Of a stretch of DNA of 64,000 nt, positions 9,146 through 43,079 are shown piece by piece; within the stretch, counting starts at the first letter, position 1, and each line of letters starts with the position of its first letter. A program made the translations under genes and the position numbers. The notes beneath the pieces were generated by a model. That model was not told the DNA's origin and did not search any database. It was given only the letters and a program-made list of their open reading frames with translations. Source of the stretch: Dactylonectria macrodidyma (taxonomy: Eukaryota > Ascomycota > Sordariomycetes > Hypocreales > Nectriaceae); the NCBI GenBank assembly GCA_020744425.1, contig JAGMUV010000022.1:620001-684000 (forward strand). The letters run 5' to 3'.

Positions 9146-9196
9146 GTAAATAAAGAAGTAAATAAAGAAGTAAACAAAGAAGTAAACAAAGAAGTA
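9146..9196. repeat. 12-bp tandem repeat
   Basis: Four consecutive copies of AGTAAAYAAAGA (two with T, two with C at the Y position). Translated on the plus strand it would give an Asn-Lys-Glu-Val repeat, but no supported gene covers it. Confidence 0.85.
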
Positions 9197-9911
9197 GTGA
9201 CAGATGGGCGGATACCCACTTTTTCTAGAGCCGCCAACCAATCCAGCCTTCTTTAGCGACCGGCAATACAAAATTTGGACCAATCAGATTCTGAGAAACT
9301 TATTTATCCCTGTCTGCACCAAACTGGGGAGCAGCCGCCACACCGGCTTGCTAGGAAGGCCTCCCGTTAGGAATAGGAAAAGGAGTGCTCTGTATCAGGA
9401 CGCCTACAGGCAGAGAGGGTCATGTGCTCAGAGAGAATGGCCATGCGTCTACAACTTGCTCTCGTCCGTGCGATCCACTAATAAGGTCACAGCAATTTTA
9501 CCTGTATGCAAGATATGTCTAGCCGGTCCTGAGCACATCATTATGATCAATCACAATCCTTGGCACGGACCTCCAATGTAGAGGCTCGGGCGAAAGCCTA
9601 AAATGCAACACAACCAAAGCTAACTCTCATCACCTGATCCTTAGGCAGGGATCATGGGGGGAGACGTCGCCTCGTCTCCTCAAATACTTCTCACTACGTC
9701 ATCTTAGCACAAGACGTGTTTTCACATTCTACCTCCGATTGTGAACAGTTATAACGTCAAAATGACAACAACACCCGTTCGGTTCGATTTCCTCTGTTAT
9801 CGTGTAGGCGTCAAGTTCGATGAGTCCTACGATATCCCTCTTCGTATCGTCAGGGCAGGAGACCATTCAGACAAGGAGAAAACCGAGAACAAACCGTTGT
9901 AGAATGCGGCG
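9197..9911. other. Intergenic, nothing recognised
   Basis: No convincing coding region, tRNA or transposon end was seen between the Helitron leader and the MYND gene. Short open stretches lack recognisable motifs. Confidence 0.5.
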
Positions 9912-10517
9912 ATGAATACTATTATGGAGCATAGCGGGGCGACATGCCTCCGGCGTGCCAGTCCGGCCTCGTGCGCGTGTGGGTTACCAGCAACGGCCAC
10001 CGAATACCTACCACCGATGCCGTTCCTTGATGCTCCGAAACCTCACGTTGTGGCGATCGTGGACCTGTTCCGCGGGAACCTGAAATGTCGGACGCGGACA
10101 CGCCAGAGCATGCTGCAAGTCATTTCGCGAAACCGCTCGCCAGGTAGCGGCCTTCGTGGCCCGGACCCAGGACTCTTCGCAGAGCTTATGTCGTGTAGAG
10201 TATGCAAGAAAAGGGAGGGGCTGAGGGAATGCGGGGTCTGTCACGTCGCGGGGTATTGTGGGCAAGAGCACCAAGAGGAGGACTGGCCAAACCATAAGGC
10301 AGAGTGTACGCCGTGGCCGACGTCGACATTCGATGCAAGGCCCCCCCTGGACGAGGCGGACGCTGACTCCGACACTAAAGTGACATACAGCGCCGTCTTT
10401 AATGTCGCGGGACCTGGCGAGCCGCCGCGGTTTAGGGAGATTAGTCGAGAGGAGGTCGTGAGACGTTTATTGATGGGAGCAGCTGGAATGGAAGAGCTGG
10501 AAGTCGAGATAAAGTAA
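9912..10517 (+). CDS. MYND-type zinc-finger protein, 201 aa
   Basis: Small protein with one MYND finger at about residues 94-132: CRVCKKREGLRECGVC followed by YCGQEHQEEDW and a closing H-x3-C (HKAEC). This is the complete C-x2-C...C-x2-C...C-x3-H...H-x3-C set that binds two zincs. MYND fingers mediate protein-protein contacts. The rest has no recognised domain: the N-terminus is Cys/Ala/Pro-rich and the C-terminus acidic, with a basic-acidic stretch REISREEVVRRLL. An ATG starts the frame and no intron is needed. It lies between two divergent Helitrons. Small MYND proteins are common in fungi, so it may be a host gene or Helitron cargo; the sequence does not decide. Confidence 0.7.
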   Translation: MNTIMEHSGATCLRRASPASCACGLPATATEYLPPMPFLDAPKPHVVAIVDLFRGNLKCRTRTRQSMLQVISRNRSPGSGLRGPDPGLFAELMSCRVCKKREGLRECGVCHVAGYCGQEHQEEDWPNHKAECTPWPTSTFDARPPLDEADADSDTKVTYSAVFNVAGPGEPPRFREISREEVVRRLLMGAAGMEELEVEIK

Positions 10518-10900
10518 AATGAGTTCAGAAAGCGAGCGCAGGTTCGCACACAGATTGTTTTGAAGAAATTGTGAACTTCCTATAAAGTTTTTAACAAAGT
10601 GGGACCCTTACGCTGACGAGGGCAATGGCAAGTGACCTATCACTTTATCAGCAGGGAGGTTCCCGGCAGGGCCACTCGGTCACATATCATGCCTGCTGCC
10701 GTAGATGCGCGTGACAGATCGGCATAACGGAGTTCCCGGGGGCTATTGTGTGTTAGTAGGCCGCTTGGGAATAGGTGATGAGGAGACTGTGACTGTACTA
10801 TGGCACTCTGGCAAGAAAGAACAAGAGATATTCTGGCAACACTAGAAGACTCCAGCTAACCAAAGGCGCTGCTGGATTGTCATAGATCACGCCGAACGTC
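10518..10900. other. Intergenic upstream of the second Helitron gene
   Basis: Holds the presumed promoter and 5' end of the plus-strand Helitron. I could not identify a 5' TC terminus with confidence and saw no other feature. Confidence 0.4.
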
Positions 10901-13900
10901 ATGGGCAGAAAGCAGAGGATCTACTCACTACGACGGCCGCTGGCCCGACTCCTTCCCAAGACACTGACCACACTACCAATTCAATGTCCTCCTATCGTTA
11001 TAACACCGAGTCTTAATCGGCGCGGCCCCAGACCAGGGGCCGCTTACCACATCCGCAGGAAACATACAAGACCAGTCCCTACCGAGAAAGATGCGCGGGT
11101 CGGCCAACCAGCACGGCCAGCAGCTCCCTCAATCTTTCCGATAGTGGATACTCCAGCCTCTCCGCTATTCCAAGAGCGAAAGAAGTCGTTGTATGAGGTC
11201 CTGAAGGCGATGGATGAACGTTGGGAGCAGAGGGTGAGAGATTCGGCGGGCCATACATGGAGTGAGCCGAGACCGCGCGAGCTCGAGCTGGAGACCGTCT
11301 GTGGCTTCTACAACAAGATGCATGACGAAAACACCATGGAGCTGACACACTGCGTCGTCTGCTATGAGCAGAAGGCATCCGTCGACGTCTCCGACTGGAA
11401 GTGGACGGTGTTCGAGCCGTTGTATCGGCAGGCGGAAACGCGCCTCACGCGTCAGGATCGGGAACATTTCGCATGCAGACAATGCTTCCCCCGTGAAGGG
11501 CCGGACAGGTTCCCTGTCTGCCAAGACTGTAGTCATGCCTTAGAGGCGGCTAAGCTCCCGCGTGCCTGCCAAGTCAACAACCTCGGCCTTGGATGCGTCC
11601 ATAGATATCCGGCGGCACTGCGAGACTTGACTCCAATGGAAGAACGGCTCATTGGCTTGTACATACCTTGTGGTTGGATCACCAAGTTCCAGATCGACAT
11701 CGAGAAGGCTACCAACGGCCGATATCGTAAGCACAAGAAGGGCCACATTACCGTATTCCCCAACGACGTGGAGAACTTGGTGTCGAAAGTGCTCCCGCAC
11801 CCCATGATGAACGAGCTGGAGAGGATCCACGTGTGCTTCGTAGCACCACGGAAGCCGGTGCCTACCGACATTGCCTGGATGATGTCGGTGCGCCCCCAGC
11901 GGCTGAAAGGCGCGCTTACCTGGCTGAAGCGGTATAATCCGTTATTCCGAGATATTTGTATCAGTGAGGAGAACCTCCGGAGTTGGGGGGACTGGTGTTC
12001 CGGTACCGAGGTGCCGCAAGCTATATTCGATAGCATGGTCCCATACGAGCTGAGCGCGGAGGACCAAATCCGGACTGGATACTATGTGTCGGCCGTTGAG
12101 CGTGGTCGTGCAGAGCAGCCTATTCGTACGGTCGAAGAGGTGCTAGCTATGCTGGAAGACCGCGAAGACGATGCTGTGCGACAAGAGAACGAAAGCAACG
12201 CGAGACTAGGCGGCCTGCAGGGGCGCCATCTCCAGAGAGAGGAGCTGGATCTTCGGCATATAGAGGAAGAGCTAATCGAGATGGTTTCAACAGGGATGTT
12301 GGGGCTCGACGAGACGGCGGACCACGGGCCTAAAGAACGGCTTCAGTGGGTCCAGGCCAGTCTGGACCAGACGGATGGCGGCCATCGGGGCAAGAAGCGC
12401 CGGCGGAGCGAGGGTGGAATCGGATACTTTACCGGCACTACGGAACCCTTTATTATCAACCAGCGGGGGGAGGAGTATGTCGATAGCAACGACCCCGATT
12501 TCTTTCCCAAGACCTTCCCCTGCCTCTTCCCATGGGGCCGAGGAGGCCCTAAGTTGGCGGAGGATGCCGGTGTCGGATTCACGGGCGTCTATAGTAGCTG
12601 CGGCCAGGACCGTAACTTCACCCTACGGAGTTGGGCGAGATTGGTGCTCCAGCGACACGGTATGTACCCGCCGAGCTGGGAGATCAGACGGAATTGACCA
12701 GTAGTAGGCGGCCTTTTCGCGACGCACCCGGCCTTTCCCTTCCTCATATACAACATGCTGGTCCGCTCGGAGAACCGGCGGATCAGCTATATTCGCATGC
12801 AGAAGCGGTCCTTCGCTCGGGTGGAGCAGATCCTCCGTGCGCTGACTGCTAGCGAGATCGAGGCCGCGGAGGAAGAATACCGCCAGACTAGGACGACTAC
12901 GAACGAGGACGTCTCCTTCCTGCTTCGAGAGCTCAGCGCCTTCGGGCATGGCCAGCATATGTCGAACGAAGAGAGACTCGGTCACCGTCGCAAGATCAAC
13001 TCCCTCAGCTTACTGCTAGGGATGAAGACAATTTGGTTCACGCTGAATCCAAACGACCTGACCAACGAAGTAAATATGAAGCTGACTGCCTACCGGGCTG
13101 TGAGCGGAGAGCTGGCCAGGCAGCTGGTGGACCAGTTCCGCAAGCACATCGGTCGGGTACAGCATGTAGTGCGAGATCCTGTGAGCTCCGCTAAGTTTTT
13201 TGACCGCGAGATCCGTCTCTTCTTCCAACACTGCGTACGCGTAGGGGGGCTATCGATATTCGGCAAGGTCTCTGGCTATTATGGCTGCGTCGAGACGAAC
13301 GAAAGGGGGGCGGAGCACCTATACGGATTCTTGTGGCTCGACGCCAACGTGGAAATGCCCACTGTCTTAGACGATATGCAAGATGACGGGGCATACGCGG
13401 AGCAGGTGTGTCGATACCTTGATACCCTGGTGAGTGAGGTAAGCGTATTGCCTAGCTAGACGTGGTAGAGAGGGAAGAGCCGCTCACCCAGGCACGGTAG
13501 TGTTGTGACGAACGAGGGGCGAAACGATACCGACGGTAGGACAGCGTCTTCCGTGATATAAGCGACATAGTGAACGATGCTAACAAGCTGGCCGATGTGT
13601 TCGAGAGCGAGGCGAACTGGGTGGCGCATCGTTGCCAGATGCACAGCTGCGGCGCAACATGTGTTAAGTATAGCTTCAAGGAAAAGGACCGGACAAGAAA
13701 GCAGCACCCGTGTCGTTTCTGAGCTCCGTGGGCGCTGCGGGAACAGACTGAATTCACACCGAGCGGCCTGCTGCACGTCAAACGCAATCACAGCCGGATT
13801 AGCCGGTTCAACAAGGCCCTAGCAGTTGCCTTGCGGCACAACCACGACATTCGACTGCTCGTCACAGTCACGTCAAGCCTAGCCATGAGCTATTACGCCA

Positions 13901-16900
13901 CGAATTACGCCACGAAGCTAGACACGCCGTTATGGAAACGGGCGGCGCTTATGAAGACGGTGTGGGAAAGGATGTCGGCGGACGTTGGGGCCGAAGGCCA
14001 AGTAGCGCATAACGACGAAGCCCCGAGGGCCACGCAGGTAAATAATAAGGCCAGGCAATTCCTGGCCCGAACGGCAAACCAGATCTTCACCAGCAGGGAG
14101 CTATCCGCTGTGGAGGTATGCAGCAGGCTCCTCGGTCATCCTAACCACTACTCCAGCGTGGAGAGATGGCAGAGCATTCACCTCAATACGCTATACTGGG
14201 TGGTCTTCAGGAGGTGGCGGGGTCTACAAGACGCAGCCGGACCGGAGGCTCGTCTGCGAGCGGCCCCGGAGACGATCAACATAGCGCAGTCTGGTGTGCA
14301 TCTTCCACTGCTGGAGGCATACGCCGGGCGTGGGGCTCTATTGGAGGACCTCTGCTTCTACGACTATGCCAGCGTGATTCAAGTGCGTCGGGTTGGGAAG
14401 CGGACGAACGTAGACAAGCCGCAGTATTTCCCCTTCGACCAAGACCTTGTCAATGGAGAGGGATGGATCCAAGAGCTCCTGAAGGCAGGGGCGCAGTACG
14501 TCCCGGTGCTCACCGGCCCCCTTAACCACGACCTGGATAAGCTAGACCCAGGATATTACCAACGGTAAGAGAGGTGAAGAGAGAGAGAAGGCTCGTCGGA
14601 GAGCTAACGGCATACAGAACCGCGGTGGTCCTCCTAGCACTCTTTGTACCTTGGCAACGCTTCACGCGCCTGGACGAGCTCTACGGCTACCGCTATGCAT
14701 CTGGCGAGTACCCCTCAGTCAAAGACGTGTGGCAAAAGCTGTCGGAAGCCATACCGGACCGGGTGAAAGGGGTGGTTAACAATATTAAGCTTCTGCACAA
14801 GAGCGCCGAAGATGCTAAGAAAGACGCGGCGTTGTGGGCTAGCCGCAGCGAAGGTGACGAGGAGAAAGAGCACGAGCCGGCGGAGGAAGGAATAGCCCCT
14901 GGCACCTCGTGGCGACCGCAGAACACGGACTTGAGGTACACATTCCATGACGCAGTATATAACCTGCATGGCGATCAAGGGGTTGCCAAAGACTTCCCCG
15001 CACTGGCAAGGCTGCTACAGGCGCTCGAGAGAGCCAGCTTCTCTGACCCCGAACCGGACCCGTGGCGCGCGGACACGCAGTCCGAACATCAAGCGACAGT
15101 AAAAACGATGACGAAGCCCGAGATTGGCATGGTACGGGCGGCCCAGCTGCGGCTCCACAGAGCCAGAGTGCTAGCCATCGAAGGGGATGATGAAGTCGGC
15201 GAAGATAAGAACGGCGACGAGGCTGGTTTCGGTCTCGGCGATGATCAGTATTTGTTCCCACCTATCCCGGCGCCCAACCTAACCCCCGCTCCAGCTCATA
15301 CTTGGGTAGATATAGCACCTGGCAGCAGCTTCCTCCTGGTTGGGAATATGATAGGCAAGCAGCGAACGCTAAACCGCATGCAGAAGATTGCCCTCGGCCT
15401 TATCTGTGAGGCGATGGACAGAGCGGAGAAAGTGTCAGATATAGCTGCTGACGGCAACGAAGGACACACGGTGTGGGAGCAGCCACCTCAACATCTCCAA
15501 TACATAGGCGGCAGCGGCGGCACCGGGAAGTCTTGGCTCATCGGGACTCTGAAAGAGGTATTCGCGGCGAAAGGGTCGTCGAAACGTATTGTCATAACAG
15601 CTACGTCCGGGACGGCGGCGGCAGGGATCGGCGGTAACACCATCCACTCCGCGCTGGGGCTAGCCTTCAAGGATCAAGACGGAGCGGCGATGGAAAGCCT
15701 ACCATCCGCGAACCTGGACAGGAGCCGGCAGCGTTGGAGAAGGCGTGACGTGCTTGTGGTCGACGAGGTAAGCATGTTAGGACTTAAGACGCTCTACGAA
15801 GTAGACCACAAGCTGCGGGCGCTCCGCGGCTTCCCAGACAGGCCGTTCGGCGGGATACCGGTGGTGGTCTTCACGGGCGACTTCCTCCAGTTCGGGCCAG
15901 TACTGCAGAAGGGCCTGCTGAGCCGGGTCGACCCCAGCGACAACGGCAAGGGGCTACGGAACCTCTCGGATCGTGCGACGCAATATCGATGGCAGCAGAT
16001 CCAGGCCAAGACGACATGGGAGCTGTTTACCAACGTAGTGATCCTAGAGGAGCAGAAGAGGGCCGAGGGCGACGAGGAACTGATAGGGCTTTTAGAACGC
16101 ATCCGGACAGGCCGACAGACGGCGGCCGACCTGGACAAGCTCAACTCACGATACATCCCTGACGAGAAGCTCGACTTCACGGGAGGCCGGCGCGCCATTA
16201 TCCCGCTCAACCGACACAGGTGGGACCTCACGCTCTGTGCCGCCCTGGCCTTCGGCGAGGAGCACGGCAGGAAGGTGTCCCTGTTCATGTCCGATCACCA
16301 GTGGAAAACCCGCGTGCCCAGCGAGGAAGAGATGGAGGCCGTAGTGCTGCTCGGAGATGACGCGCAGCTCCCCATCCCAGGCATCTTTCCGTACGTCGAG
16401 GGCATGCCCGTCATCGTCAACCAGAACAAGTACCTGGGGCTGAAAGTAGTCAATGGAGCAGAGTTCACGGCCGCCGGCGTCGTCGCAGACGGAGAGGTAG
16501 AAGAACGGGTGATCCACGACTGGCTGTCCGTCTTCCTCGGGCCGCCAAGCGGGATCCTTCTCCAATCGCAGGATACGGAGGGGCTCGCGTTCCCGCACAT
16601 ACCTCCGCGTACCCTCATGCTAGGGACAGAGACTGTGCAGCTTGACAAAGAAAAGCACGGCAAATACGTCTGTCCGCGACTTGCAGCCAAGCGGGAGTTT
16701 AAGATGGGGCTGACGCGTACGGGGCTGCCATGCACGCCAGGCTTTGCGCTTACTGACTATAAGGCACAAAGCAAGACCCTAGAGAAGGTTCTGCTTGGGC
16801 TCTATGGGAGAAAAGGGACGAAGGGATACCCGAGCATGGAGAAGTGCGGTGTGCTTAGCTTGTACGTGCAATTATCACGGTGCAAGCGGTTACGGGACAT

Positions 16901-17042
16901 ACGGCTTATACAGCCAATTCTAAGGGAGCACTTCGAACAGGCGCGGATGTATCCGGAGCTCATAGAAGGGGTCGATCGATTAAAAGAGCTAGCAAGACAG
17001 ACGGTTGAGCGGTTTGAGGTCAGGCATGGGAAGCAAGGTTAG
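10901..17042 (+). pseudogene. Helitron Rep-helicase, near complete, four exons with one nonsense codon
   Basis: Rolling-circle replicase/helicase of a Helitron. Exons: 10901-12659, 12708-13438, 13540-14564, 14618-17042 (1980 codons, phases agree). Intron 1 (48 nt, GTATGT...TAG) and intron 3 (53 nt, GTAAGA, GCTAAC branch, CATACAG) restore family motifs exactly; intron 2 (GTAAGC at 13439 or GTGAGT at 13430, to TAG at 13539) is likely but less certain. Domains: Helitron-associated N-terminal region (LTPMEERLIGLY, about residues 245-400), Rep N domain (IWFTLNPNDLTNE), Rep motif ERGAEHLYGFLWL, and a Pif1-like helicase with Walker A GGSGTGKS near 15510, Walker B VLVVDEVSM near 15755, TGDFLQFGPV, and C-terminal LTDYKAQSKTLEK and LYVQLSRC motifs. 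Defects: in-frame TGA at 13720-13722 within CRF-stop-APW, and the second HUH histidine is Tyr (TAC at 13322). Confidence 0.88.
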
Positions 17043-21239: not shown

Positions 21240-22826
21240 GGATCGCACAGCCAGACACCGGCTTCAGCAACCAACTTATCACATTCGAATGGCTTCATCA
21301 CTTTAATGCGTTCTCTGGCTTGCTTCTATAAAGGCTAGTCAGAACGGCGTAACTCTTACAGAGTGGTTCGGCTGCGATGAATGGCTTCGAGATGCCTCAT
21401 CGCCACATATCACATTGACAGCGCCTCCCGCTATTGGCAACGATGAGGGTAGAATCTACCGACTTCTCGTGATCGACGGCTTCTCCGGCCACCTAGGCTT
21501 CGATGCTATTCAGTATTGCATTCAATTTGATATCATCATTTGCGTGTTGCCGTCACACTCAACACACCTTACGCAGCCGCTTGATGTTGGTGTTTTTCAG
21601 CCGATGAAGAACTCACATCAGAAGGAACTTAGGAAATCTATTCAGGAAGGCAATATAACTTTTTCCCGCGAAGACTTCGCCGCTGCATTCTCAAAGATCT
21701 ACAGAGACGGCTTCAAAAGACATAACATCATGTCAGGGTTCGAAAAAGCCGGTATTTGGCCCACATCTTCGAAGCCCGTGATCGACCGCATCCTCGCCAA
21801 GCACCGCAGAGAGCGAAATGCGATCCACCCGTCTGTTCTTAAGATGTTGCCTTCAGAGACTCGATTTCAGGATGCTCAAGACCAGATAGAGCGGATCTAC
21901 AGGCGGTACCAGGAGGTCATGAGCTCCCCAACCCTTGAAGTATCGCCAACATCCGCGACGTTGTGACTGAGGCGGGCCTGCTGCATCGAGAACGTGAAGC
22001 CGTTGCCTCACACCGGCTTAATTGTATCGAGAAATTCGGGAAAAGAAGGAGGCCCGGCCAGCGCGTACGGCCAAGTGGTGACTTCGTCACAAGTGTTGGA
22101 TTTCCTGAGATTCGGGCTCAACATGAAGCAGCTATGGCAGCAGCAGAGGCCAAGGAACAGCATTCTCAACTGCGGTCAGGCAGATCTATCATTCTTCAGG
22201 AGATAAGGGCTCTCAAGGCTGCTTGGCGGCAGGAAATTCAGTCCCGGGGAGTCAGTTATCTGCCGAGACTAACTTGGAACCAGTGGCTCGAAGAGACCGG
22301 CCACCTCGACCGATACAAAGACCTCGAAGCAAATCGAAAGCATCATAATGACTCCCTTAGCCAGCGGCCAAAGAAGTCACTTTCTGAAGCCCAAGAACAA
22401 GCCCGCCGTGCCGCAAGACCGATTATCGCGATGGATCAGAGTGCCTGGCCTGATGATGATGATAACGTCGAATTCACCCTCACAGGACCACTTCAAGAAG
22501 AGGAAGACGATGAAGATGATGAAGTCGATCTCATAGGATTCAGTGACCTAGGCGGCGAGGAAATTCCTGATCTTATAACGCCTCCAGGGATAACATCATC
22601 GCCGCCCCCTGGTGCCCTGGATCTAGTCGATGACGCCGATGACGATAACATCACAACACCACAACTTCCCGACCCAATGCCAACAGTACGAAGATACGAT
22701 GACATCAAGAAGATACTGAAGGAATTTCGTGACGATCAGGCTACTAGGAAGGTGGAGGCAACACATGGTCAACAGGGTCCTGATCGGCAGCCAGAATCAG
22801 GCCCTAGGAAAAGGCGGCGCAATTGA
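21225..22826 (+). pseudogene. Pogo/Fot-type DDE transposase fragment with two frameshifts
   Basis: C-terminal two thirds of a Tc1/mariner-superfamily (pogo-like, DDE_1) transposase. Visible: IRIAQPDTGFSNQLITFEWLHHF at about 21228-21296, a frameshift near 21305, then TEWFGCDEWLRDA, the catalytic block LLVIDGFSGH (about 21457) and LPSHSTHLTQPLDVGVFQPMK (about 21550-21608), RHNIMSGFEKAGIWP, then a second 1-nt shift at about 21940-21963 into the frame carrying VVTEAGLLHRERE and a long acidic tail (EEEDDEDDEVD) ending RKRRRN at 22826. The N-terminal HTH/CENP-B-like region and the first catalytic Asp are missing or unrecognisable. Overlapping frames at GTTGTGACTG (about 21958-21967) show the second break. 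Confidence 0.8.
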
Positions 22827-23465: not shown

Positions 23466-25490
23466 TCAACTCGTCAAGACCACTGGGGCGGGTATCAGTG
23501 TAAAGGGTAGCCGAAGGATGCCGAATCGGATGGGGCTTCTGTCTTCCCTTTCCACTTTGCGACTGCCCGTACTAATGCGATCAATTAGTTTGGTCAGCTC
23601 GGTCTCGGCTTCCCCAGACTTCCTCGCCCTGTGCTGGTGGCCGGTCTCGAGGTTGCGGAGGTCCATCTCTCGATCCGTGACGACGAGAACGAGGTCCTCC
23701 GGAATTGGCGAACCCTTCGGTGTCGCGTCTGGCCAACTCGTAGCTTGACCTTTGACCTTTGTCTCGAATGCCGGCTTGCCGAATACATACGACCCATAAT
23801 TGGCTAGCTTGATTCCATCGGGAGAGCTCGTCGTGAGTAGCGTAACTGATGCAGTGCAGACGTCGAATATCGATACGTACAGGGTGTCCTCCGATATACT
23901 CGTCATTTCGACATACAATTTCTGCCCTTCTACTACCTCGGGTATCCTTGCCTGGACTAGCGGCTGCCGATTTCCGTTGACGTCGACAAGCCCGAACTCG
24001 ACCTTGAGATGCTTAGCAATTACGTCTTCTCCGAGATCAACCCGGCATGTCAAGAGGTGTTGAGCCCAGGCTAGATTTTCTAATACGTTGGTGCAGTCTC
24101 GGATTTGGGTGAGGGCTTGTTCTCCTGGAATATCCCATTCACGCAGCAGGTGCTCCCCGCCTCCATAATGGCTCTTGAGAGAAAGTCGAGACCCTCGGAT
24201 GGATACGGTTGCCATGACCGGTACCAGTAGATCGGCTTGCCTCCGAGGCCGAACATACTCAGACTTATTCAACTCATCGGCAAGCCCCCCCTCCAAGCGC
24301 CCAGCAGCGTCGAGATTAACCTGGAATGTCGCCGGAGCCGTTTGCACCGGGAATGCTTTCGCTCCAGCCGGCAAGACGGTGTCTGGGCTGAGAATGACGC
24401 GAGATGTCAGCGGTCCGACCTCTTCGACAACCGCCCGCGTAATCTCTGTTGCGTGCGCCACGCGTTCGACCTTGAATGGCTGCACCGAATATATATCGCC
24501 TTTTGAGATGTTGTGGAGTCTCCCACCCGATAGGGTGACATGGTCCCTGTCCGTCGAGAGAGAAAGGATACCGCGGGAGTCGGCATAGTCGAGGCAGAAG
24601 GTGAAGCGCAGGTCATTGGCTTCAACCTGGGGCACTTGCGATGGAAAATCGAGTTTGATGCGATCCCGGACATTGAGCATGACGCTCCGCCAGGAGACAT
24701 TTGGCCGCCAGGGGACTTCTGTCTGCCCGGCCTCGCGCGCCGACCCCGGGATTGCTTCCGTCAGCGCCGCCGCAAGGGCGTTTGTCAAGACGCCTGTCGT
24801 ATGTTCGACCAGGCTGCCGTCACTGGCGTAGCTGCGGATGGTCGTCTCGTATGCGCTTTCGGTCTGCGGGGTTGCGACGATGAAAACAGCGTCGGGGTTC
24901 TTCTCATGATGGAGACCCGTGTCGAATTTGCCATTGTCCATCATCTTGTCAATATGCGCGAGAACCATTCTATAGGCGTCATTGTCGGGAGTTTTGACAA
25001 TTCCATCGCCCCTCGCCATGCGTGCAGAGTGGCAGCAGTCCAAAATGAGGGTCACGTTTGGCGTGATTTTGGTCGTTCGGGCGAGGAGATGGGACAGCTC
25101 TGCGCCGGTAATGCCCCTCCAGTCGCCCACTCGGGTTTCGCCAAAGTCCAGGGGGAGGATATATTGAAGGGGAAGGCGGGTGCTGTCGCCTTGCTTCCCT
25201 TGCCACCGCCTCAGCATGCCGTGGCCGGAATAGTAGATGACCACGGCGTCGCCAGGACAAGTGTCATTGATGAGGGCCTCCCAGGCCTCGAGGATTCCCG
25301 CCCTCGTGGCTGTATACGGCGCCAGGCCATGAGAGAAGCAGCGGGTGCTCACGAAACCGTAGCTTCTCAGGACACTCTCCATAGTATCCAAGTCATTTGC
25401 TTGGCCGCAGAGACTGGGCAGCTGGCTAGCGATGAGGAGAGCACGTTTCTCACCCCCAGTGGGAGGTGACGTGGCAAGATTCTCAGACAT
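23466..25490 (-). CDS. Caspase-domain (C14) cysteine protease, 674 aa
   Basis: Caspase/metacaspase-fold protease with a large unassigned C-terminal region. From the first ATG at 25490: core strand KRALLIASQ, helix DLDTMESVLRSYGF, the catalytic His block VVIYYSGHG (His90), the substrate-loop region LPLQYILPLDF, and the catalytic Cys block TLILDCCHSA (Cys153). This His-Cys dyad with the SGHG and DxCHS motifs is diagnostic of clan CD. The domain ends near residue 290; the next 380 residues are probably beta-rich, with no membrane segment, NB-ARC or repeats, and I do not recognise them. Single exon, no defects. The frame stays open above the ATG to about 25520, so a slightly earlier start is possible. 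It is the first of three neighbouring genes with death-protease character. Cleavage specificity (Arg/Lys or Asp) cannot be read. Confidence 0.88.
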   Translation of the reverse strand: MSENLATSPPTGGEKRALLIASQLPSLCGQANDLDTMESVLRSYGFVSTRCFSHGLAPYTATRAGILEAWEALINDTCPGDAVVIYYSGHGMLRRWQGKQGDSTRLPLQYILPLDFGETRVGDWRGITGAELSHLLARTTKITPNVTLILDCCHSARMARGDGIVKTPDNDAYRMVLAHIDKMMDNGKFDTGLHHEKNPDAVFIVATPQTESAYETTIRSYASDGSLVEHTTGVLTNALAAALTEAIPGSAREAGQTEVPWRPNVSWRSVMLNVRDRIKLDFPSQVPQVEANDLRFTFCLDYADSRGILSLSTDRDHVTLSGGRLHNISKGDIYSVQPFKVERVAHATEITRAVVEEVGPLTSRVILSPDTVLPAGAKAFPVQTAPATFQVNLDAAGRLEGGLADELNKSEYVRPRRQADLLVPVMATVSIRGSRLSLKSHYGGGEHLLREWDIPGEQALTQIRDCTNVLENLAWAQHLLTCRVDLGEDVIAKHLKVEFGLVDVNGNRQPLVQARIPEVVEGQKLYVEMTSISEDTLYVSIFDVCTASVTLLTTSSPDGIKLANYGSYVFGKPAFETKVKGQATSWPDATPKGSPIPEDLVLVVTDREMDLRNLETGHQHRARKSGEAETELTKLIDRISTGSRKVEREDRSPIRFGILRLPFTLIPAPVVLTS

Positions 25491-25520
25491 ATCGATAATG
25501 GGCCAGCCTTCTTCAGTCAA

Positions 25521-25957
25521 GCTTCTCCGGTTAGCCAGGTTTCGACGGGAAACCGCCAGTTGAGACGGTCAAGCCGAAGGCTTGAAGCGTTGGTATTGAA
25601 GTATCGGTCGAAGGAACCTCGACATCGAAGATCTACCCCTCCCCTCCTTGGCCGGGGGGGAGCTTGGAAATTACCTGTATCTTTATTCGATGAGCATATT
25701 CCTATTCCAGGCCTGCCGCATCACATGGCTGTGTGCTTCTCCCCCACCATCTCCCCTCGAAGATACGAAGATGCGATGCCTGACTCGAAGAAGTGGCTTA
25801 CGGAGGGTGTGTTACAACGGGTCACGCATGTCCTCTTTGGCTGCAATCACTAAATCGATTGTCCAGCTCGTCTTTCACACTCAATTTCATCTCATTACCC
25901 CGAAGTGCTACTATTCACCTAAGATAGGTTTCACATGCGTATTGTTCTTCTCGAACC
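25521..25957. other. Spacer between the caspase gene and the middle gene
   Basis: About 440 bp; holds the caspase-gene promoter and the 3' end of the next minus-strand gene. No other feature recognised. Confidence 0.5.
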
Positions 25958-26921
25958 TCATCCACTCGAGTGACTCCATCCAGGCCCTCCGACGTAAGTA
26001 AATCCCTGTCCGTCGCTTCCACCGTAGTGTCCCATGCTCGTGCTCCAACTCTGGGTCCCACCACCGGCACCTGGGTTAGCCATAGCTTGCAGTCTTAAAT
26101 TCCCTAGCGGGATTGGGCTCCCCTCCATGCCAAAACTACCATCGCCATTCACCCACCACCTCCCCGGTCTCACCGGTACTCCCATCGCCTGTAGACTCAA
26201 GGCATCCACGGCGTGTATCTCGCGTCCATTGATGAAAACGTCTGTGCCTGTATTCCCGGAGGCATGTTGATCAAGTTGCCCATTACCGAGGGCCAGCCCC
26301 GCGACCAGAAACCCGGTACATGGCCCGCCGGCTGAGCCATAGGCTCCACTGCGACGATCATACCTGTTTTGGACTCAGAGATGACCGGTTAGTCAGAGTT
26401 GCAGGTCATGGCACTTACCAGTAGTTCCCCGGTATCACAGCTCCTAAAAGCCCTTGGAGGCTGAGCACATCTGCTTGCCCAAGCTCCACGCCATTGACAG
26501 TGATATTGTTTGCGAACGAGGATGCCTGTGGAAATGCTATAGGTCCACCAAATGAGGCGCTCTGGGCAACTTGCCCAAGTGTAGAACGCCACGACGAACG
26601 CCTGGCAGATGTGGCTGTAGGTGCAGGGTGGGGGATGCCACGTTCATGTTGCATATGCGAGTCTGAAAATCTAAGAGAGGTGTCTGGACTGGGTTGTGTG
26701 GCCTCATCGGAGAGACTCCTTGCAGTGCTTGTCGCTACAGGAACCGGGAGCCGTGAGGATTGGAGCGTCAACATGTTCGGACGCGGAGGGAGAGGCGGTG
26801 GGCTTTCGTCAACCCAGGCGGTTACTGACCCTCTCGGGGACATTATCCCAAATTGTAAACTGAATGGGTCTGGGGTCGGTGACATTTCTAGTCGTATTTC
26901 TCGGCATTTTGGAGCTGCCAT
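25958..26921 (-). pseudogene. Protein with a duplicated G-x-(Y/W)-W module, frameshifted
   Basis: Two-exon gene on the minus strand: exon 1 26921-26419, intron 26418-26365 (54 nt, GTAAGT...ACAG), exon 2 26364-25958. Exon 1 encodes a Pro/Ser-rich leader and ends FANNITVNGVELGQADVLSL...GNYW. Exon 2 continues YDRRSGAY, then PCTGFLVAGLALG, VFINGREIHAVDALSL, GRWWVNGDGSFGMEGSP and NLRL. Thus VNG-x3-DxLSL / GNYWYD and ING-x4-DALSL / GRWWVNGDG are two copies of one module. One extra A at 26340/26341 turns SGAYGS into SGA-stop; either a real 1-nt insertion or a sequence error. I recall similar G-x-YW-x-D...GGP...F-x-NG-R modules in uncharacterised bacterial proteins but could not check. Function unknown; the neighbours suggest a sensor or effector partner for the two proteases. 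Confidence 0.62.
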
Positions 26922-27615
26922 TTACCTATGACGGAGGCACTCTTGAGGACAAGGTTCTTTTTATATCGCCTTGTGGTGCAGCATGGTTTGAAAAGGCCAT
27001 GCTTTTGGGCCACAACCCACACCTCGGACGATTCTCCGAATGCTAGGTCCCTTTACCAGCTCCGCTGAAGCACGGACACCGTAGCATCATCGCGGCAATG
27101 GATAGAGGGGTTGGTGACAGCTAAACGTAATATGGCAAAGGTGGCTGAAATTGCTGACCAATGCGGTCATCTTATAGCAGGAGCCAGCAATCCGAGTGCA
27201 TCACATGAATGACATTGGCGGAGGGATCCTGTAGCTACAATGTCTCACAGCTTTCAGGCATGGCATGCGGCTTGAGTACCTGATAGGTTGGTCTAGGCAA
27301 TTAAGGTTACTCTATGTGCGCACACGTCACCCTCACATCAACCTCACATCAGCCTCACACCAAAGGTCCAAGATGCGAGACTACGACTACTCAAAGCTGA
27401 AAACAAGGAAAGTTAGTCAGGTGGCTGAAAGCTCAGTTATCGGCCTGCCACAACTTTCTCAAGCTTGAAACATGTGACTCAATCTGTCCATAATGGGCCT
27501 GACTTTTGTTCGTAGAATACAGAGCAACGTCTCAACTTATTTGTCACTGTATTCTTAAAACAATTCAAGCCTAACCCCGTTTGCTAGAACTGCAACCACT
27601 CAGTTGCTCCTTGGG
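26922..27615. promoter_or_regulatory. Shared divergent promoter region of the module gene and the CHAT gene
   Basis: About 690 bp between the two divergent starts, with no coding signal. At about 27330-27362 there are three near copies of an 11-bp unit CCTCACATCAR. This arrangement would allow co-regulation; inferred from layout only. Confidence 0.5.
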
Positions 27616-30600
27616 ATGAGCAAAACGGTGGTATGTGCTACGACCATGGCATGCCACAACCTGAACACGTCCGATTTGTCCAACGAGGCACCTCAACTTG
27701 CCGAGGGCATATTGGGTCACTTTCCTCATTGTGGAATGACCCACGACAACCTCAAAAATGAGAGAGACATTGCAGAGCACCATCTTCAAGCCGTTGGACG
27801 GATTGACAATTCGGCCAAGGCCGGAGCGCTCCTGCATTTGGGAATCATTTGCCTCCTTCAAGGCGAGGCCCAGGTGGCTTTCGAAAGATTCAGAAATGCA
27901 GCAGCCATATCATACCACGACCCAAGAGCTTACTTCACTGCCCTTTGTTATGGGTTGCAGTGTCTGTTCATGACCTACCGCTGGAGCCTAGATGGCCGAT
28001 TGATACCAGCAGATGAAATGGATCCGTTATACAACCTCGAAAAAGCACTACCCTATTGGGTTGATAAAATCAACGAGGTTAAACGTTGTCTCGGCTCATC
28101 GACCCTGGGACAGCTGGCCTATGTTTTAGAGCAACAACGGTGCATACTTTTCACGAGAGACGTCGTTGACCAACCATCCCTAAGCACACAACAACTACAG
28201 ATGGCCTCTTGGCTGGAACGAAATGTCCAGTTTCTCGGTTCTGGGGAACTTCCTTTCCAGAAGGTCGCACCACTGTTACTCGAGGTAGCCGGGGTTCATT
28301 ACCAGGCCCAAGCGCCTCATGCGATAGAAATCGTTGGCGATGTTTTTCGGAGATGTTCCCAAATCAATGATCTTGTTGGGATGGCACATTGCGAAATGAA
28401 GCTGGGTGACTTTGAATGCTGCTCAACCGCACTGCCCGAGGCATGGGGCAATGTGTTACGTCCAGGGCTTGACAGCACAGTGTCTATCCCACTTGACCAA
28501 TCATTGGGATTCTCCCCCTTACCTGCCCGAATAGATAAGTCAGCCACTCACTACGATACTGCGCGCACTCTTTTTGAGCGAGTTGGATTTCGGCGCGGGA
28601 TGGCCATGGTCAACCTACGGTACGGATATTTAGCAACTCTCCGGGCGCGATATGGTGATGCCGTCGACCACTACCGACGTGCCCTGGAATTTTTCAGTGC
28701 AGCAATCGAGGTGTTCTCGAACACGGGCGATATTATTGCATTTCAGACTGCTCGGGCACATTCGATCTTATGTCGGGTTGGTGTTGGACAACTTCCCGAG
28801 GACAGAGCAACAGCGGAAGAGATTGGGGTTTGGGGTCGGACAAGGGGAAGCATTAGCTATACCATGGGGCTCGGCCTTTTCTTTTCCGCTCAAGCGCGGC
28901 GATGGTTGACCGATGAGGGTGATTACGAGCGGGCCTTGGCAGCTTTCAGACTCGCAGAATCGTTACTGGACTGTCTCGGACTCCAACGAGCTTACACTAC
29001 CAGCGTCCTCGACCACCTCTCAGTCCATGACATGCTTGGAGAACACGACAGGTTTACGATAACTTGTGAACACGTCCTCAAGGCTTGTCGACTGCTGTAC
29101 GAGAGACGTGGCTCGCCACTTGCATCTTGGGCGAAGTCTCGAGCTACGCACGTCCTGCAGCGAGTGATCAACCGAGCCATTCAGCGTGAAAACCCAGACG
29201 AGATAGCTAGTGCAGTGGCCAGGATCCAACTCCTATATCCCAAAAGACCTCAAGAAGCCATACTGAGTAATCTCGTCTCACTCATCAACAAGACTCCTTC
29301 CGGCTCCCCGGCCAACCCGGACGTGGAGGCTATACAAGATATCTCATCAGATACGACAACTCAATCCAGCACGCAAGCAGCTGAGTTTCTCAAACACGTC
29401 TTCCGAGCTCAGCGCTCAGAGCGACACGGAGATATGAACACTGCCCAGGCCGAGTGGAATCTCGCCGAGGTCAAGGCGCACGAGAGCGAGGATTCGCACG
29501 AGAAGGAGCTTTTACTGGCCCGAGTCTCCGCAGGCCGGGAGGAGTACGACAAGGCTGCGACACACCTAAATTCCTACTTTAAATTGCGTCTAGGCGCAGC
29601 GGAAAGTATGCGACAACATGGTCTCAACCTATCAGCGGACCTGCAACAACTCCTCGACGGGCGGCGGAAACAGGTTTATGAGGCTCTGCTGCCGGGTTTC
29701 GTGGGACTGAGTGACTTCAATCGAGCCGAGGAAATCCTTGGTACTCTCAATGATCTATACGGAGGAGATTGGTGGAGAACCGGCGATGCGGTGGCGAATC
29801 TTGCCGCAGCCGCTGCAGCCAAAGAGGGAGTTGGTCAGTTCCCAGCTGCGTCGACATTGTACGGCATGGCTATGCAGAACTTTGAGGATAGACGTGGCCG
29901 TTTGTCCCTTGACGAGTACAAATTGGCCATTGCTAGCAATTCTCTAGTGCAGGGGCTGTATTTTAAGGCAGCGCGAACCGCTGTGAAATGGCACGAAAGT
30001 CTCGCTTCGAGCACGCTCCAATCACAACATCTGGAGGACGCTTTTAGAAACCTGGAGCGGGGGAAGACTCGCAGTCTCCTGGACTTAATGGCGGCTGGAA
30101 CGTTGCTGTATGGCCAGACTGAGCCCTCAGATATTCGCGAATGGGACGAATATAGGAAGACTGGCATTTACGTTGCCAGCAACCGTGCGATGCTCGGCCA
30201 GCAGTACTCGATGAAAGGCCCCGACGAAGCCAGAATTAGCAAATTGGAGAAGGACATATCGGAAGCTGAAAGAAGACTAAGCCGACTTGAGGAAGTGCTT
30301 TTCGCGGACAAATCCCCTGTAGCTCGACGATTTGTGACGACGACCGATGTGACCGACATCCGTACTCTCTGCTCCCAACTCGACGACGACACGGTTGTCT
30401 TGCAATATGCATATCGCAATGACGACCTCATAGCATGGGCAATCACAACAGACGGCATGCTCGAGGTCTCTAGGCAGCCAGTCCGTGAAATAGAACTCGA
30501 ACTGCGCGCGAGAAGGTATCGCGAGATGTGTGAAGCGTCAATACAAGATGCTGCAGATGGAACACAAAGTCTTGAGCATGGCCAATGGCTTGCAGACCGT

Positions 30601-31503
30601 CTCTTGCCGTTTCGCAGAGCACTTGACAAGTTCCACATCATAATCGTCGCATATCGAGCGCTTCATAGTCTACCATTTCATGCTCTACCGTGGAGAGGAG
30701 GTCTACTGTTAGCAACGCACTCCGTGTCATATCTACCCAGCGCAAGCTCAATCTCATATCTTCAATCGGACCGCACTTCGAATACTGGGCTCAAAATTCT
30801 CTCAGTGGGCAATCCTTCGGGTATGATGCATGAGAATATCGTCTCCGGACGCTCCAGGAGTTTGAAAGAGCTTCGGTACTCCGAGTCTGAGTCGCGCTAT
30901 ATCGGCAGCATCAATGCAGAGAGTAGGTCGCTGTGCGGACACGAAGCCACCAAGGAGGCCGTGACGGAGAATATCGAGCAATACGATGTTCTGCATTTCG
31001 CAACCCATGGCATCCTTTGTACCGAAGTCCCGATGATGTCATCCGTTGCCCTCGCGGACGGCAAGGAACTGACTGTTAGCGAACTTATGGGTCGGCGACT
31101 CAGGGCCTCGCTCGTGGTCTTAAGTGCCTGCGATACCGGAGTAGGTCGTCTCACGGACGGCGACGACATCATCGGGTTCTCGCGGGCGTTATTAGCTGTA
31201 GGGGTGAAGAACGTCGTGGTTAGCCTTTGGCCTGTGGACGACCTGGCAACCAGTTTCCTCATGAAGGCTTTCTATGGACATTTGATGAAAGGTGAGACTG
31301 GTGCCGTAGCGCTACGGGAAGCGCAACTGGCCGTCAGAAGATCGACTCAAAAAGACATGGAAATGCATGCCCTGGACATCCAACAGACATGTGGCGGAGA
31401 ACTTTCTGGGAGGTCCATAGCTCCCGAAATCAATCCAGGGGTGGCAAAGGGTTATCATCAACCAAGGTTCTGGGCGCCGTTCATTTTTATTGGGGTCAGA
31501 TGA
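27616..31503 (+). CDS. TPR-like/CHAT-domain protease, 1295 aa
   Basis: Large single-exon gene. Numbering from the first ATG at 27616. Residues about 60-850 form alpha-helical repeats of TPR type (for example HLGIICLLQGEAQVAFERFRNA, YGYLATLRARYGDAVDHYRRAL), then a short predicted coiled coil (ISKLEKDISEAERRLSRLEE, about 873-893), and from about 915 a CHAT domain (caspase HetF-associated with TPRs, separase-like, clan CD). Catalytic residues: His1131 in VLHFATHG and Cys1172 in VLSACDTG, followed by the usual GVKNVVVSLWPVDD and FYGHLMKGE...ALREAQLAVR blocks. Both catalytic residues are present and the frame has no defect, so an active peptidase is likely. No NACHT, NB-ARC or membrane segment was seen. 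It faces away from the module gene and the caspase gene; in fungi and bacteria CHAT proteases are known as activators of gasdermin-type or other death effectors. Confidence 0.9.
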   Translation: MSKTVVCATTMACHNLNTSDLSNEAPQLAEGILGHFPHCGMTHDNLKNERDIAEHHLQAVGRIDNSAKAGALLHLGIICLLQGEAQVAFERFRNAAAISYHDPRAYFTALCYGLQCLFMTYRWSLDGRLIPADEMDPLYNLEKALPYWVDKINEVKRCLGSSTLGQLAYVLEQQRCILFTRDVVDQPSLSTQQLQMASWLERNVQFLGSGELPFQKVAPLLLEVAGVHYQAQAPHAIEIVGDVFRRCSQINDLVGMAHCEMKLGDFECCSTALPEAWGNVLRPGLDSTVSIPLDQSLGFSPLPARIDKSATHYDTARTLFERVGFRRGMAMVNLRYGYLATLRARYGDAVDHYRRALEFFSAAIEVFSNTGDIIAFQTARAHSILCRVGVGQLPEDRATAEEIGVWGRTRGSISYTMGLGLFFSAQARRWLTDEGDYERALAAFRLAESLLDCLGLQRAYTTSVLDHLSVHDMLGEHDRFTITCEHVLKACRLLYERRGSPLASWAKSRATHVLQRVINRAIQRENPDEIASAVARIQLLYPKRPQEAILSNLVSLINKTPSGSPANPDVEAIQDISSDTTTQSSTQAAEFLKHVFRAQRSERHGDMNTAQAEWNLAEVKAHESEDSHEKELLLARVSAGREEYDKAATHLNSYFKLRLGAAESMRQHGLNLSADLQQLLDGRRKQVYEALLPGFVGLSDFNRAEEILGTLNDLYGGDWWRTGDAVANLAAAAAAKEGVGQFPAASTLYGMAMQNFEDRRGRLSLDEYKLAIASNSLVQGLYFKAARTAVKWHESLASSTLQSQHLEDAFRNLERGKTRSLLDLMAAGTLLYGQTEPSDIREWDEYRKTGIYVASNRAMLGQQYSMKGPDEARISKLEKDISEAERRLSRLEEVLFADKSPVARRFVTTTDVTDIRTLCSQLDDDTVVLQYAYRNDDLIAWAITTDGMLEVSRQPVREIELELRARRYREMCEASIQDAADGTQSLEHGQWLADRLLPFRRALDKFHIIIVAYRALHSLPFHALPWRGGLLLATHSVSYLPSASSISYLQSDRTSNTGLKILSVGNPSGMMHENIVSGRSRSLKELRYSESESRYIGSINAESRSLCGHEATKEAVTENIEQYDVLHFATHGILCTEVPMMSSVALADGKELTVSELMGRRLRASLVVLSACDTGVGRLTDGDDIIGFSRALLAVGVKNVVVSLWPVDDLATSFLMKAFYGHLMKGETGAVALREAQLAVRRSTQKDMEMHALDIQQTCGGELSGRSIAPEINPGVAKGYHQPRFWAPFIFIGVR

Positions 31504-40172: not shown

Positions 40173-43079
40173 CAGGCTGGCGATCAATTCAATTCCATCA
40201 ATTTCGCCTTCACGTGGCGTTGCGTTGACAGCTTACTCAGCATTTGGTCCGTGGAGTTGAACCACCGCATCTCCAAATTGAATTGATGGCGTTGAATTGA
40301 AGAGGTTGAACCGTATACGCGCCCAGATCCAATCGCTTACTCCCCAGCGTCTTCGCCATCCTCCTCCGCCTCCCATATAATGCTATTCCTAACCTCTCCT
40401 GACACATCAATTAACGTATCCACAGTGTCGATTAGGCCATTCCGCACCCACGACCTAAGTGTCTGTGTTATCCCTATCGTGCTAGCTTCCAATCGAGTCC
40501 GCTGCGGCGAAACCATTTGCCCAGCAACACTAAACAACCGCTCGCACTCTGCGGACATAGGCGGCACCGACAGCAAGTCGAGAGCCATTCGTGACAGCCG
40601 AGGGTAATCTTTCCGTCTCTCCCACCAATATTGGATAGGATCGGTGACAAAAGGGTCGTTCTTAGCGTCAGGACTCAACAGCCAGTGGTCATATTCATCA
40701 TGGTCTGCATTCAGTGAACTTTCTAAAGAAGAACATCTGCCTGCCAGAGACGAAGTCCTGTGGGCTCGGTGTCTCTCGAGCGCACTCATTGCCTTTAAGC
40801 GCTTGAATGGAGGTTCTTCATCCGATACCGAAAGATTCGGTAGTGATTTGTACTCTTCGTCCCACAGGGTCCTCACGATTCTTTTTGCCTCGTGAAGCCA
40901 CGGCAGCTGTGCTTTGTCGGTCCACGTATTCTCGAAATATCCCCAACGTGAGACTGGATTTAGAATGGCGGAAGCATAGTACGCTGGCGTCTCGTCCAGC
41001 TTCGCATAGTACTCGTTCAACTTATCCCACCCCAGGTTGATGTTTATCTTGAAGTGCTCCGGATCCGGGTAGTTCTCTGCTGCTGCTTTCCACTCCTCTA
41101 GACTGTCCATCAGGAATTCGTAGGTTGAGGCAACATCCCACATATTGCCATATGCCTCAATACGGCCTCCTTTTCGCACTCGGTTCTGAGCGTCGCCTTC
41201 AAGCATCCGGAGTGCCTCCTCAAAGTCAAGGAGCATCTTGTCCATCAACTCAATAACTTTCCAATCTTTCTCGCTAAGAAGACTCTCCTCCCGGAGACAG
41301 AGGGGCATCTCTTCCCTCCTTCTAACCCCGTTGCGACATTCCTTATTGAATTCAAGCGTGACCTTCTCAACTAGGTCTTCGAGAAACGGACGCAGCATGA
41401 GACCGCGCCGCATCATATACAGAGTCGACAACCAGCGAGTCTGGTTATCGCGGACAACGTCGACAGGCTTCCTTGCTCGAATCTTCGGGTTGTCTGAATG
41501 TTGAAAGAATTCTTCTTGTAGCGCACGGAGATGGTATGTCAGCTTATCGGATCGATGGATCCAATGGACCAGGTTGTGGAGCTTTCCGATGGGGCCTTTC
41601 TTTCGCCAGATTTCGTGCTGGGCAGCGCCAAACCCAGACTCCCCATCAATCTCTGATTCAAAAGCCTCGGCCTTGTGTCCAAACAACAGAGCTTTTACCA
41701 CCAAGTTGAGGACGTGGCCGAAGCATCGCACTCTCCGTTTCTTCGGATCGAAACCCAGCACCCCCGCAATCTCCTCCGTTGCTGTATCCATATTGCCAGC
41801 GTTGTCAAGTGTGATGTACCCCACCCTATCGAGTATCTCATAGCTCTCTAAGATCTCGAGGATCTGGGCTGCAATATTCTCCCCTGAATGGCAATTCTTC
41901 AACTCCGGCAGGCCAAGGACCAGCTTCGACGGGACTCCATTTTTATCAATATAAAAACAGACAATCCCATATAGAGCGTGCCGATTCCTTGAGCGCCAAC
42001 CATCGAATGCAATATGGATTTGACCTGGGACGCTCCTCAGGTGGTCAATTATGCGCGTCTTTTGTCGGACATGAAGGTCGACAATTCGCCTTCGAACGGT
42101 ATCGTGGGAGATATGGGCATTCGTCGCTGCAACCGATGGCTTCAGGTATTCGAATATACGTCGAAGCCGGCAATGCTCGGGCTGGCGAAAAGAGACGTTG
42201 GCGTCGACCACCCACTCGAGAAGCAGTCTCTGAAAGTGGTCCCTATCGAAGCGTTGGATGAGAGCGTTCGCGATGGCTTGCTCTTTAGGGTCTGAAGTGT
42301 CGAGATTTAACATCTCCACGATGTTCCTTAAGGGGGTCTTCTCCCTCATCCCCTTCCCAAGAGCGGGCGGCCTCTTCCCGGTCCCGTCGACGAGCTTGTG
42401 TTCTCTGAATAGATGCTTCTCGATATTCTGGGTGCCAACGGCGGAGTAGTCTGACGTTCTAGACTTCGGCTTCTTGAGGCAAGGCTTGCAAACCCATTTC
42501 CTCTCGGTGGGAGAATCGTTACGTTGAATGTCGAAACCATGCTGCCAGACCCAGGACGTCTGCCTGCCAGCACGCTCAGAAATCGTAAAGGCCGGGAACT
42601 TATTCCATGGAAAGATTTTCCATTCATCTGGCAAAGAATCCAAGTTCGTAAACGGTGCGTTGGTTGAGTTGCTGTCCGAAGTTCGCCGGCGCTTCGTAGG
42701 TAGGTTGGTATCCATTTTGACCGCAGGAAAGGGATGCAATGTTTTGTTGAAGGGTTTATTTGCCGCGCGGCGACAGAGAACGCGGCGCACACGCGTTCGC
42801 TAGGCTTAAGTACTGAATACATTGATGTATGTGCAAATAGTTCGAAGTGGAAAGTACCGGTGACAAAGTCCGACGGACGCGATTTTCGGGGCCGCGAATG
42901 CTACCCTGGACCACCACCCTTCTCAACCGTTTCAACCAGTGGTCAACGTTGAAGCCATCGCGATGGAATTGAGGCTGTCAACATCGAGGCGAGATTGAAT
43001 TGATTGAATTGACGCACGGACCTTCCACTTCAATAATATTGAAATGGTAGAGGTGGAGGTGGAATTGATCGCCAGCCTG
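40173..43079 (-). mobile_element. Intact hAT (Restless-type) transposon, 2907 bp
   Basis: Perfect 18-bp terminal inverted repeats CAGGCTGGCGATCAATTC at both ends, perfect 8-bp target duplication AGTGGATG (40165-40172 and 43080-43087), and one uninterrupted transposase frame. Sub-terminal GAATTGAATTGAT-like motifs occur on both sides. It sits in the C-terminal coding part of the decayed Mutator-like gene. Confidence 0.96.
40337..42715 (-). CDS. hAT-family transposase, full length, 792 aa
   Basis: DDE transposase of the intact hAT element. From the ATG at 42715 (the frame is open further to 42790, without an ATG): a nuclear-localisation-like TKRRRTS, a BED-type finger (WVWQHGF, CKPCLKKPKS, NIEKHLFREH), the insertion/RNase-H core with IHIAFDGWRSRNRHALYG (first Asp), VGYITLDNAGNMDTA (second Asp), CFGHVLNLVVKALLFG, WRKKGPIGKLHNLVHWI, NQTRWLSTLYMM, NLGWDKLNEYYAKLDETPAY, and the C-terminal hAT dimerisation domain MSAECERLFSVAGQMVSPQRTRL with the catalytic Glu. 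Length and motif order are those of full-length fungal Restless/Tol2-like transposases. No stop or frameshift, so probably functional. Confidence 0.95.
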   Translation of the reverse strand: MDTNLPTKRRRTSDSNSTNAPFTNLDSLPDEWKIFPWNKFPAFTISERAGRQTSWVWQHGFDIQRNDSPTERKWVCKPCLKKPKSRTSDYSAVGTQNIEKHLFREHKLVDGTGKRPPALGKGMREKTPLRNIVEMLNLDTSDPKEQAIANALIQRFDRDHFQRLLLEWVVDANVSFRQPEHCRLRRIFEYLKPSVAATNAHISHDTVRRRIVDLHVRQKTRIIDHLRSVPGQIHIAFDGWRSRNRHALYGIVCFYIDKNGVPSKLVLGLPELKNCHSGENIAAQILEILESYEILDRVGYITLDNAGNMDTATEEIAGVLGFDPKKRRVRCFGHVLNLVVKALLFGHKAEAFESEIDGESGFGAAQHEIWRKKGPIGKLHNLVHWIHRSDKLTYHLRALQEEFFQHSDNPKIRARKPVDVVRDNQTRWLSTLYMMRRGLMLRPFLEDLVEKVTLEFNKECRNGVRRREEMPLCLREESLLSEKDWKVIELMDKMLLDFEEALRMLEGDAQNRVRKGGRIEAYGNMWDVASTYEFLMDSLEEWKAAAENYPDPEHFKININLGWDKLNEYYAKLDETPAYYASAILNPVSRWGYFENTWTDKAQLPWLHEAKRIVRTLWDEEYKSLPNLSVSDEEPPFKRLKAMSALERHRAHRTSSLAGRCSSLESSLNADHDEYDHWLLSPDAKNDPFVTDPIQYWWERRKDYPRLSRMALDLLSVPPMSAECERLFSVAGQMVSPQRTRLEASTIGITQTLRSWVRNGLIDTVDTLIDVSGEVRNSIIWEAEEDGEDAGE

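Follow-up and report, generated by a model that had tools for sequence, protein, structure and literature searches.

The window analysed here, i.e. the whole stretch of 64,000 nucleotides at positions 620,001 to 684,000 of contig JAGMUV010000022.1 from the ascomycete Dactylonectria macrodidyma, contains three neighbouring genes: a caspase-like protease gene (25490-23466, minus strand), a small gene whose product is built on G-x-(Y/W)-W units (26921-25958, minus strand; hereafter the module gene) and a gene for a protease with a CHAT domain (27616-31503, plus strand). This trio is real and is conserved in at least some fungi. Whether the three genes work as one unit, conserved among fungi and based on two cysteine proteases of clan CD, with the CHAT protein as sensor, the caspase-like protein as second protease and the module protein as partner or substrate, we consider an evenly balanced question; such a unit would perhaps serve self-destruction or the recognition of foreign cells. 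The original prediction, made from the letters alone, had described this layout and two intact catalytic dyads, and all three genes and both dyads were found. The features are as follows.

23466..25490, minus strand: caspase-like protease gene, one exon, 674 amino acids (open reading frame; first ATG at 25490, stop at 23466)
24597..25448, minus strand: Peptidase C14 domain, residues 15-298, with His90/Cys153
23469..24590, minus strand: C-terminal part (residues 301-674) of the caspase-like protein, which the structure model shows as mostly beta; no named family (Pfam profiles)
26419..26921, minus strand: module gene, exon 1 (the public model starts at 26885)
26364..26418, minus strand: module gene, GT-AG intron of 55 bp (public model P0001 splices identically)
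25958..26363, minus strand: module gene, exon 2
26778..26798, minus strand: proline-rich motif PPLPPRP near the module N-terminus, retained with small changes in seven aligned fungal full-length orthologues
26081..26504, minus strand: folded core of the module protein, two diverged units of ~47 residues with G-x-(Y/W)-W in each, spanning the intron (model and alignment)
25961..26035, minus strand: Gly/aromatic C-terminal tail of the module protein, the part best conserved in the seven fungal orthologues and without confident structure in the model
26922..27615, no strand: stretch separating the module gene from the divergently oriented CHAT gene, a putative promoter
27616..31503, plus strand: CHAT protease gene, one exon, 1295 amino acids (open reading frame; the listed protein of 1285 amino acids begins ten codons later, at 27646)
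30577..31494, plus strand: CHAT domain with His1131/Cys1172 (profile match and motifs)

The caspase-like protein matches PF00656 at 59.7-59.8 bits (cut-off 21.4), and the motifs SGHG at 88 and DCCH at 151 bear out the proposed dyad by providing His90 and Cys153, respectively. Profile, His/Cys dyad (in SGHG and DxCH contexts) and caspase fold together place it in Peptidase C14, as a predicted protease. The fold comparison was taken up by the protease domain and barely probed the C-terminal region. In the CHAT protein, PF12770 scores 199.3 bits (cut-off 24), and ATHG at 1129 and SACDTG at 1170 supply His1131 and Cys1172. Two side observations concern caspase-like genes. A copy of the C-terminal half of the window caspase-like protein, 88% identical and with two TGA codons, lies at C34:1440649-1441860, where the 9 kb fetched contain no CHAT or module match; and the public model of the D. 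estremocensis caspase (P0066) deviates from the other aligned rows between the His and Cys motifs, perhaps through a wrong intron in the annotation.

Relatives of the three proteins were sought among protein entries representing 90% clusters (the best 120 of 366 for the caspase; 16 entries, to E 1e-60, for CHAT), and nearness was read from the locus tags and contigs of these entries, not from gene order. In Truncatella angustata, which belongs to another subclass (Xylariomycetidae), the CHAT, module and caspase relatives bear consecutive tags (TruAng_001615, TruAng_001616 and TruAng_001617) in the order seen in the window, all on a contig of 230,033 bp. The three relatives also share one contig in D. 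estremocensis (1,568,072 bp) and in Cladobotryum mycophilum (5,027,942 bp, a weak sign of nearness at 5 Mb), and in Fusarium phalaenopsidis a caspase (LRP88_00310) and a CHAT protein (LRP88_00312) are two tags apart on one contig. The original prediction had staked itself on at least two of these families being neighbours in other genomes; in other fungi they are neighbours or lie on one contig, and the co-occurrence extends to repeated caspase-CHAT pairs in the D. macrodidyma genome and to module-CHAT neighbours at a second locus and in a minority of bacterial genomes. A quick tree of the caspases was computed with 39 rows (33 chosen entries, the window caspase and five other caspases of the same genome). 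Both Dactylonectria species group with F. heterosporum, and the Truncatella, Cladobotryum and F. phalaenopsidis caspases fall in another clade of six; thus the caspase slot draws on two branches of one family.

The caspase-CHAT neighbourhood was then counted across the D. macrodidyma genome. A scan at E 1e-5 gave 48 CHAT and 14 C14 matches, broken copies included; joining two split genes reduced the latter to 12 C14 genes. Seven of these (contigs C44, C1, C21, C15, C43, C2 and C10) lie at most 7 kb from a CHAT match, with 0.10-0.15 expected by chance (P ~3e-12 under random positions). HET-domain matches served as a control for accessory-region bias: 2 of the 150 scored, out of 286 candidates, are near CHAT (Fisher P 5e-8 versus C14). 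The paired C14 genes span two groups far apart on the quick tree; the seven pairs are nevertheless not seven independent events, since those on C1, C21 and C44 are close relatives. The C14 copy on C10 has stops, and five C14 genes, including that on C76, lack a CHAT match within 20 kb. The open frames at the six pairs other than the window pair are 1.0-1.5 kb apart. The caspase-CHAT pair is the wider pattern and the module a special addition at the window locus. These counts bear on the idea that the three genes are unrelated and that chance brought them together in an accessory region rich in transposons. The trio does have Helitron, DDE_1 and hAT sequences around it, and CHAT and C14 matches are numerous in the genome; however, the consecutive tags in identical order in T. 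angustata and the 7 of 12 C14 genes near CHAT, set against 2 of 150 for HET, strongly disfavour chance, which we regard as very improbable. Two other arrangements were noticed in the same genome: at C44:204501-216501 one caspase-like gene has a CHAT gene on each side within 12 kb, and at C45:610847-613471 the distance between a CHAT match and an S8 protease match is ~1.3 kb.

The module protein has 302 amino acids encoded in two exons (290 in public model P0001, which starts 12 codons later). Alignment of the seven fungal orthologues indicates conserved ends and a variable linker at residues 36-120. The family had been called uncharacterised, and it indeed has no Pfam family, and the two G-x-(Y/W)-W units were confirmed; searches for a known family in Pfam, NCBIfam, PADLOC, PDB sequences and PDB folds all ended at noise level. 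A structure prediction of the module protein alone, one of the checks proposed with the original prediction, returned a folded two-repeat core. No gasdermin match was obtained in Pfam, PDB sequences or PDB folds, searches that a distant gasdermin could escape. A second module gene of D. macrodidyma is located at C13:359074 (51% identical over 94 residues). The CHAT gene ~3 kb from it encodes 1325 amino acids (125.5 bits), with ~24% identity to the window CHAT protein in alignable stretches, so that this genome has two module-CHAT pairs, whose loci have diverged; the second locus showed no caspase match. A small three-exon gene (L063 5763-6764, plus strand) separates the second module copy from the neighbouring CHAT gene. 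A likeness to fungal gasdermin-like proteins was considered for it and dropped, since neither Pfam, PDB sequences nor PADLOC gave a match and its own genome holds no paralogue. The frame of the second module copy runs to a terminal CVIL (L063 near 8011), a CaaX-like end, but there is a possible intron donor at the same point. A WW domain (PF00397) was noted on the module proteins P0013 (Linnemannia) and P0014; in P0013 it is N-terminal, in the position of the ascomycete proline-rich motif.

A scan of genome contigs yielded 56 module loci. The fungal modules fall inside bacterial diversity on a quick tree, which points to a bacterial ancestry of the module gene. CHAT domains were counted in 47 bacterial genomes, leaving out L022, L038 and six Marinifilum loci; the count also omits L017 (a 57-amino acid fragment) and L008 (a 1.3e-5 match at a contig end to the full-length profile only, not to its CHAT part). 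A CHAT domain near the module was found in 4 of the 47 (0.34 expected from genome-wide counts, P 3e-4): L007 (Acidobacteria), L027 (Saprospiraceae), L052 and L060 (Chromatiales). At L027 the contig breaks off within a CHAT gene, of which the remaining end portion immediately precedes the module gene; at L060 no other CHAT gene was found in the genome, and the CHAT and module genes are both broken. A bacterial neighbour stronger than CHAT was sought in vain: the genes directly flanking 50 of the 56 loci (the six Marinifilum repeats being dropped), 93 in all, are diverse, and the commonest are tetratricopeptide repeat (TPR) families (TPR_2, 6 of 93). Carriage by phages or plasmids was likewise not borne out: with the bacterial member P0025 as query, phage records gave no match and plasmid records a single one (Gemmatirosa, 45.5% identity), and no viral contig carrying the module was confirmed with query A1. 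L022 and L038 are metagenome-assembled genomes labelled Bordetella parapertussis and Klebsiella pneumoniae; their modules group with myxococcal ones, and the bins are perhaps mislabelled.

The module protein might instead be an inhibitor, chaperone or scaffold which binds CHAT and keeps it silent in the manner of an antitoxin, the proteases themselves doing the killing. Small genes next to proteases often encode inhibitors, and the module core is conserved and well folded in the structure model. By a crude rule, 43 of 50 non-fungal module entries have a hydrophobic N-terminal run and look exported; the CHAT protein near the module at L007 also has a signal-like sequence at its start, so that both would share a compartment there. 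However, no CHAT was counted within reach of most bacterial modules, the family is seldom met (in one bacterial class, 3 of 395 genomes gave matches), and the caspase-CHAT pairs elsewhere in the D. macrodidyma genome manage without a module. We consider an inhibitor, chaperone or scaffold role unlikely.

In the favoured interpretation, a functional unit with a sensor, a second protease and a partner, the CHAT protein would most likely be the sensor: its N-terminal ~980 residues, weakly TPR-like, would recognise a trigger, which could be a foreign or non-self protein or damage, and this recognition would switch on the CHAT protease. The caspase-like protein would follow as second protease, amplifier or executioner. 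The module protein would be the partner of both proteases and probably their substrate: it has the bacterial-type two-repeat core without the export signal, its proline-rich motif in front may serve docking, the variable linker offers a natural place to cut, and the conserved Gly/aromatic tail would act when released. In non-self recognition or defence, the likely outcome would be that cells die locally or are walled off. Sensing, cleavage, the order of action and death are roles that we infer by analogy, and they were assigned because of what the available text describes for gasdermin-protease clusters (PMC12881547), hetB (PMC11138114) and Craspase (PMC11106740).

Several results weigh against this interpretation: (i) among the matches listed, all three relatives share one contig in 3 of 11 other named fungal module entries, and 8 are without the full trio (Ilyonectria destructans, F. 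nematophilum, F. oxysporum, Microdochium, Parachaetomium, Leptodophora, Linnemannia and F. solani); (ii) the 14-18 kb fetched around each of the remaining six caspase-CHAT pairs gave no module match, so the pairing can do without the module; (iii) in 43 of the 47 bacterial genomes no CHAT was counted in the stretch fetched near the module, and profiles built from fungal proteins found no caspase relative in the 56 module loci; (iv) of the proposed TPR-CHAT protease the CHAT domain and its dyad stand, whereas the TPR part stays below the Pfam cut-off (PF13424, 21.5 bits, cut-off 30.1); (v) the PDB fold comparison found no solved structure that matches the module core, and none of the three proteins was recognised as a known death effector; and (vi) local alignment gave no clear amyloid-type motif common to the module and the proteases. 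In the last comparison, the score of the three module parts against each protease was reached by 15, 19, 53, 83, 114 and 179 of 200 shuffles; the lowest counts (15 and 19) belong to the module N-terminal part, and very short motifs could escape.

A non-death role was also weighed, in which the trio would be a unit for regulated processing in secretion, development or stress and the proteases a processing pair. Caspase-like and CHAT proteases also have non-death roles, the death role of the trio is suggested by analogy, and Pfam profiles recognised no pore former, NLR domain, NACHT or NB-ARC family or STAND NTPase domain in the three proteins. Nevertheless, the patchy distribution and the repeated two-protease pairing resemble fungal non-self loci, and, in the text available, a CHAT allele is a het gene in Aspergillus fumigatus (PMC11138114). 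A processing role appears quite unlikely.

Set beside described systems, we would place the trio among the fungal protease-partner clusters, to which it adds a second protease and a new partner family. The closest comparison, as far as the available text of the sources goes, is with fungal clusters of a gasdermin and its protease: HET-Q1 with the serine protease HET-Q2 and, in Podospora anserina, a gasdermin paired with a TPR-CHAT protease (PMC10197012, PMC12881547). These too are small ascomycete clusters in which a protease gene lies beside a small gene and CHAT is the presumed sensor. Unlike them, the trio has no recognised gasdermin, possesses a second, caspase-like protease, and has a small protein from a family found mainly in bacteria. 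At the A. fumigatus hetB locus, an idiomorph pair, one idiomorph encodes a CHAT protein of near size (1,327 versus 1,295 residues); the trio differs from such idiomorphs, and the part of PMC11138114 available mentions no caspase or module neighbour. Craspase combines gRAMP with a TPR-CHAT protease whose natural substrate is Csx30 (PMC9729208, PMC11106740, available text). In the trio, too, a partner protein would be the substrate of such a protease; however, the Csx29 model NF041237 matches the CHAT protein at 39.1 bits, far below its cut-off of 300, and no CRISPR effector was noticed, although none was searched for. Bacterial EACC1/EACC2 caspase conflict systems likewise have a caspase-like domain in a small multi-gene unit (PMC8195603, available text), whereas the caspase-like protein scores 34 bits with NF047832 (EACC1-associated caspase; cut-off 140) and the three trio proteins lack their STAND NTPase domain.

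A bolder version holds that the trio is a novel fungal system for death or non-self recognition with a caspase cascade, in which a CHAT sensor and a caspase-like protease act in series on a common target, here not a gasdermin but a bacterial-derived two-repeat protein whose bacterial relatives mostly look exported and in some cases lie near a CHAT protease, and that caspase-CHAT pairs are a general chassis for different effectors; this seems to us somewhat unlikely. To our knowledge, caspase cascades are regarded as an animal feature. If true, a conserved fungal two-protease unit with a partner of bacterial descent would offer a testable fungal analogue of the initiator-executioner division among caspases, and the repeated pairing of caspase and CHAT genes would provide a search rule for more fungal effectors. 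In the literature searched, which largely excluded subscription papers, we recognised no description of the module or of paired caspase and CHAT genes in a fungus; where the available text of PMC10197012 and PMC12881547 describes fungal death loci under protease control, a protease is joined with a gasdermin.

The module gene follows the caspase-like gene in tandem, with 467 bp between them, and is divergent from the CHAT gene, with 694 or 730 bp from ATG to ATG depending on the module start. Of the shared divergent promoter that had been proposed, the orientation holds and the promoter itself is putative. The trio had also been placed alone between transposon debris. Among ten open reading frames scanned in the window, transposon-type sequences were Helitron_like_N at 4877-7144 and 12698-13456, a PIF1 helicase frame at 14541-17039, DDE_1 at 21307-21963 and hAT at 40340-42799; the right-hand transposase being ~9 kb off, this description fits the left side better than the right. 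Within 4877-17039, Helitron_like_N proteins on both strands accompany the PIF1 helicase frame.

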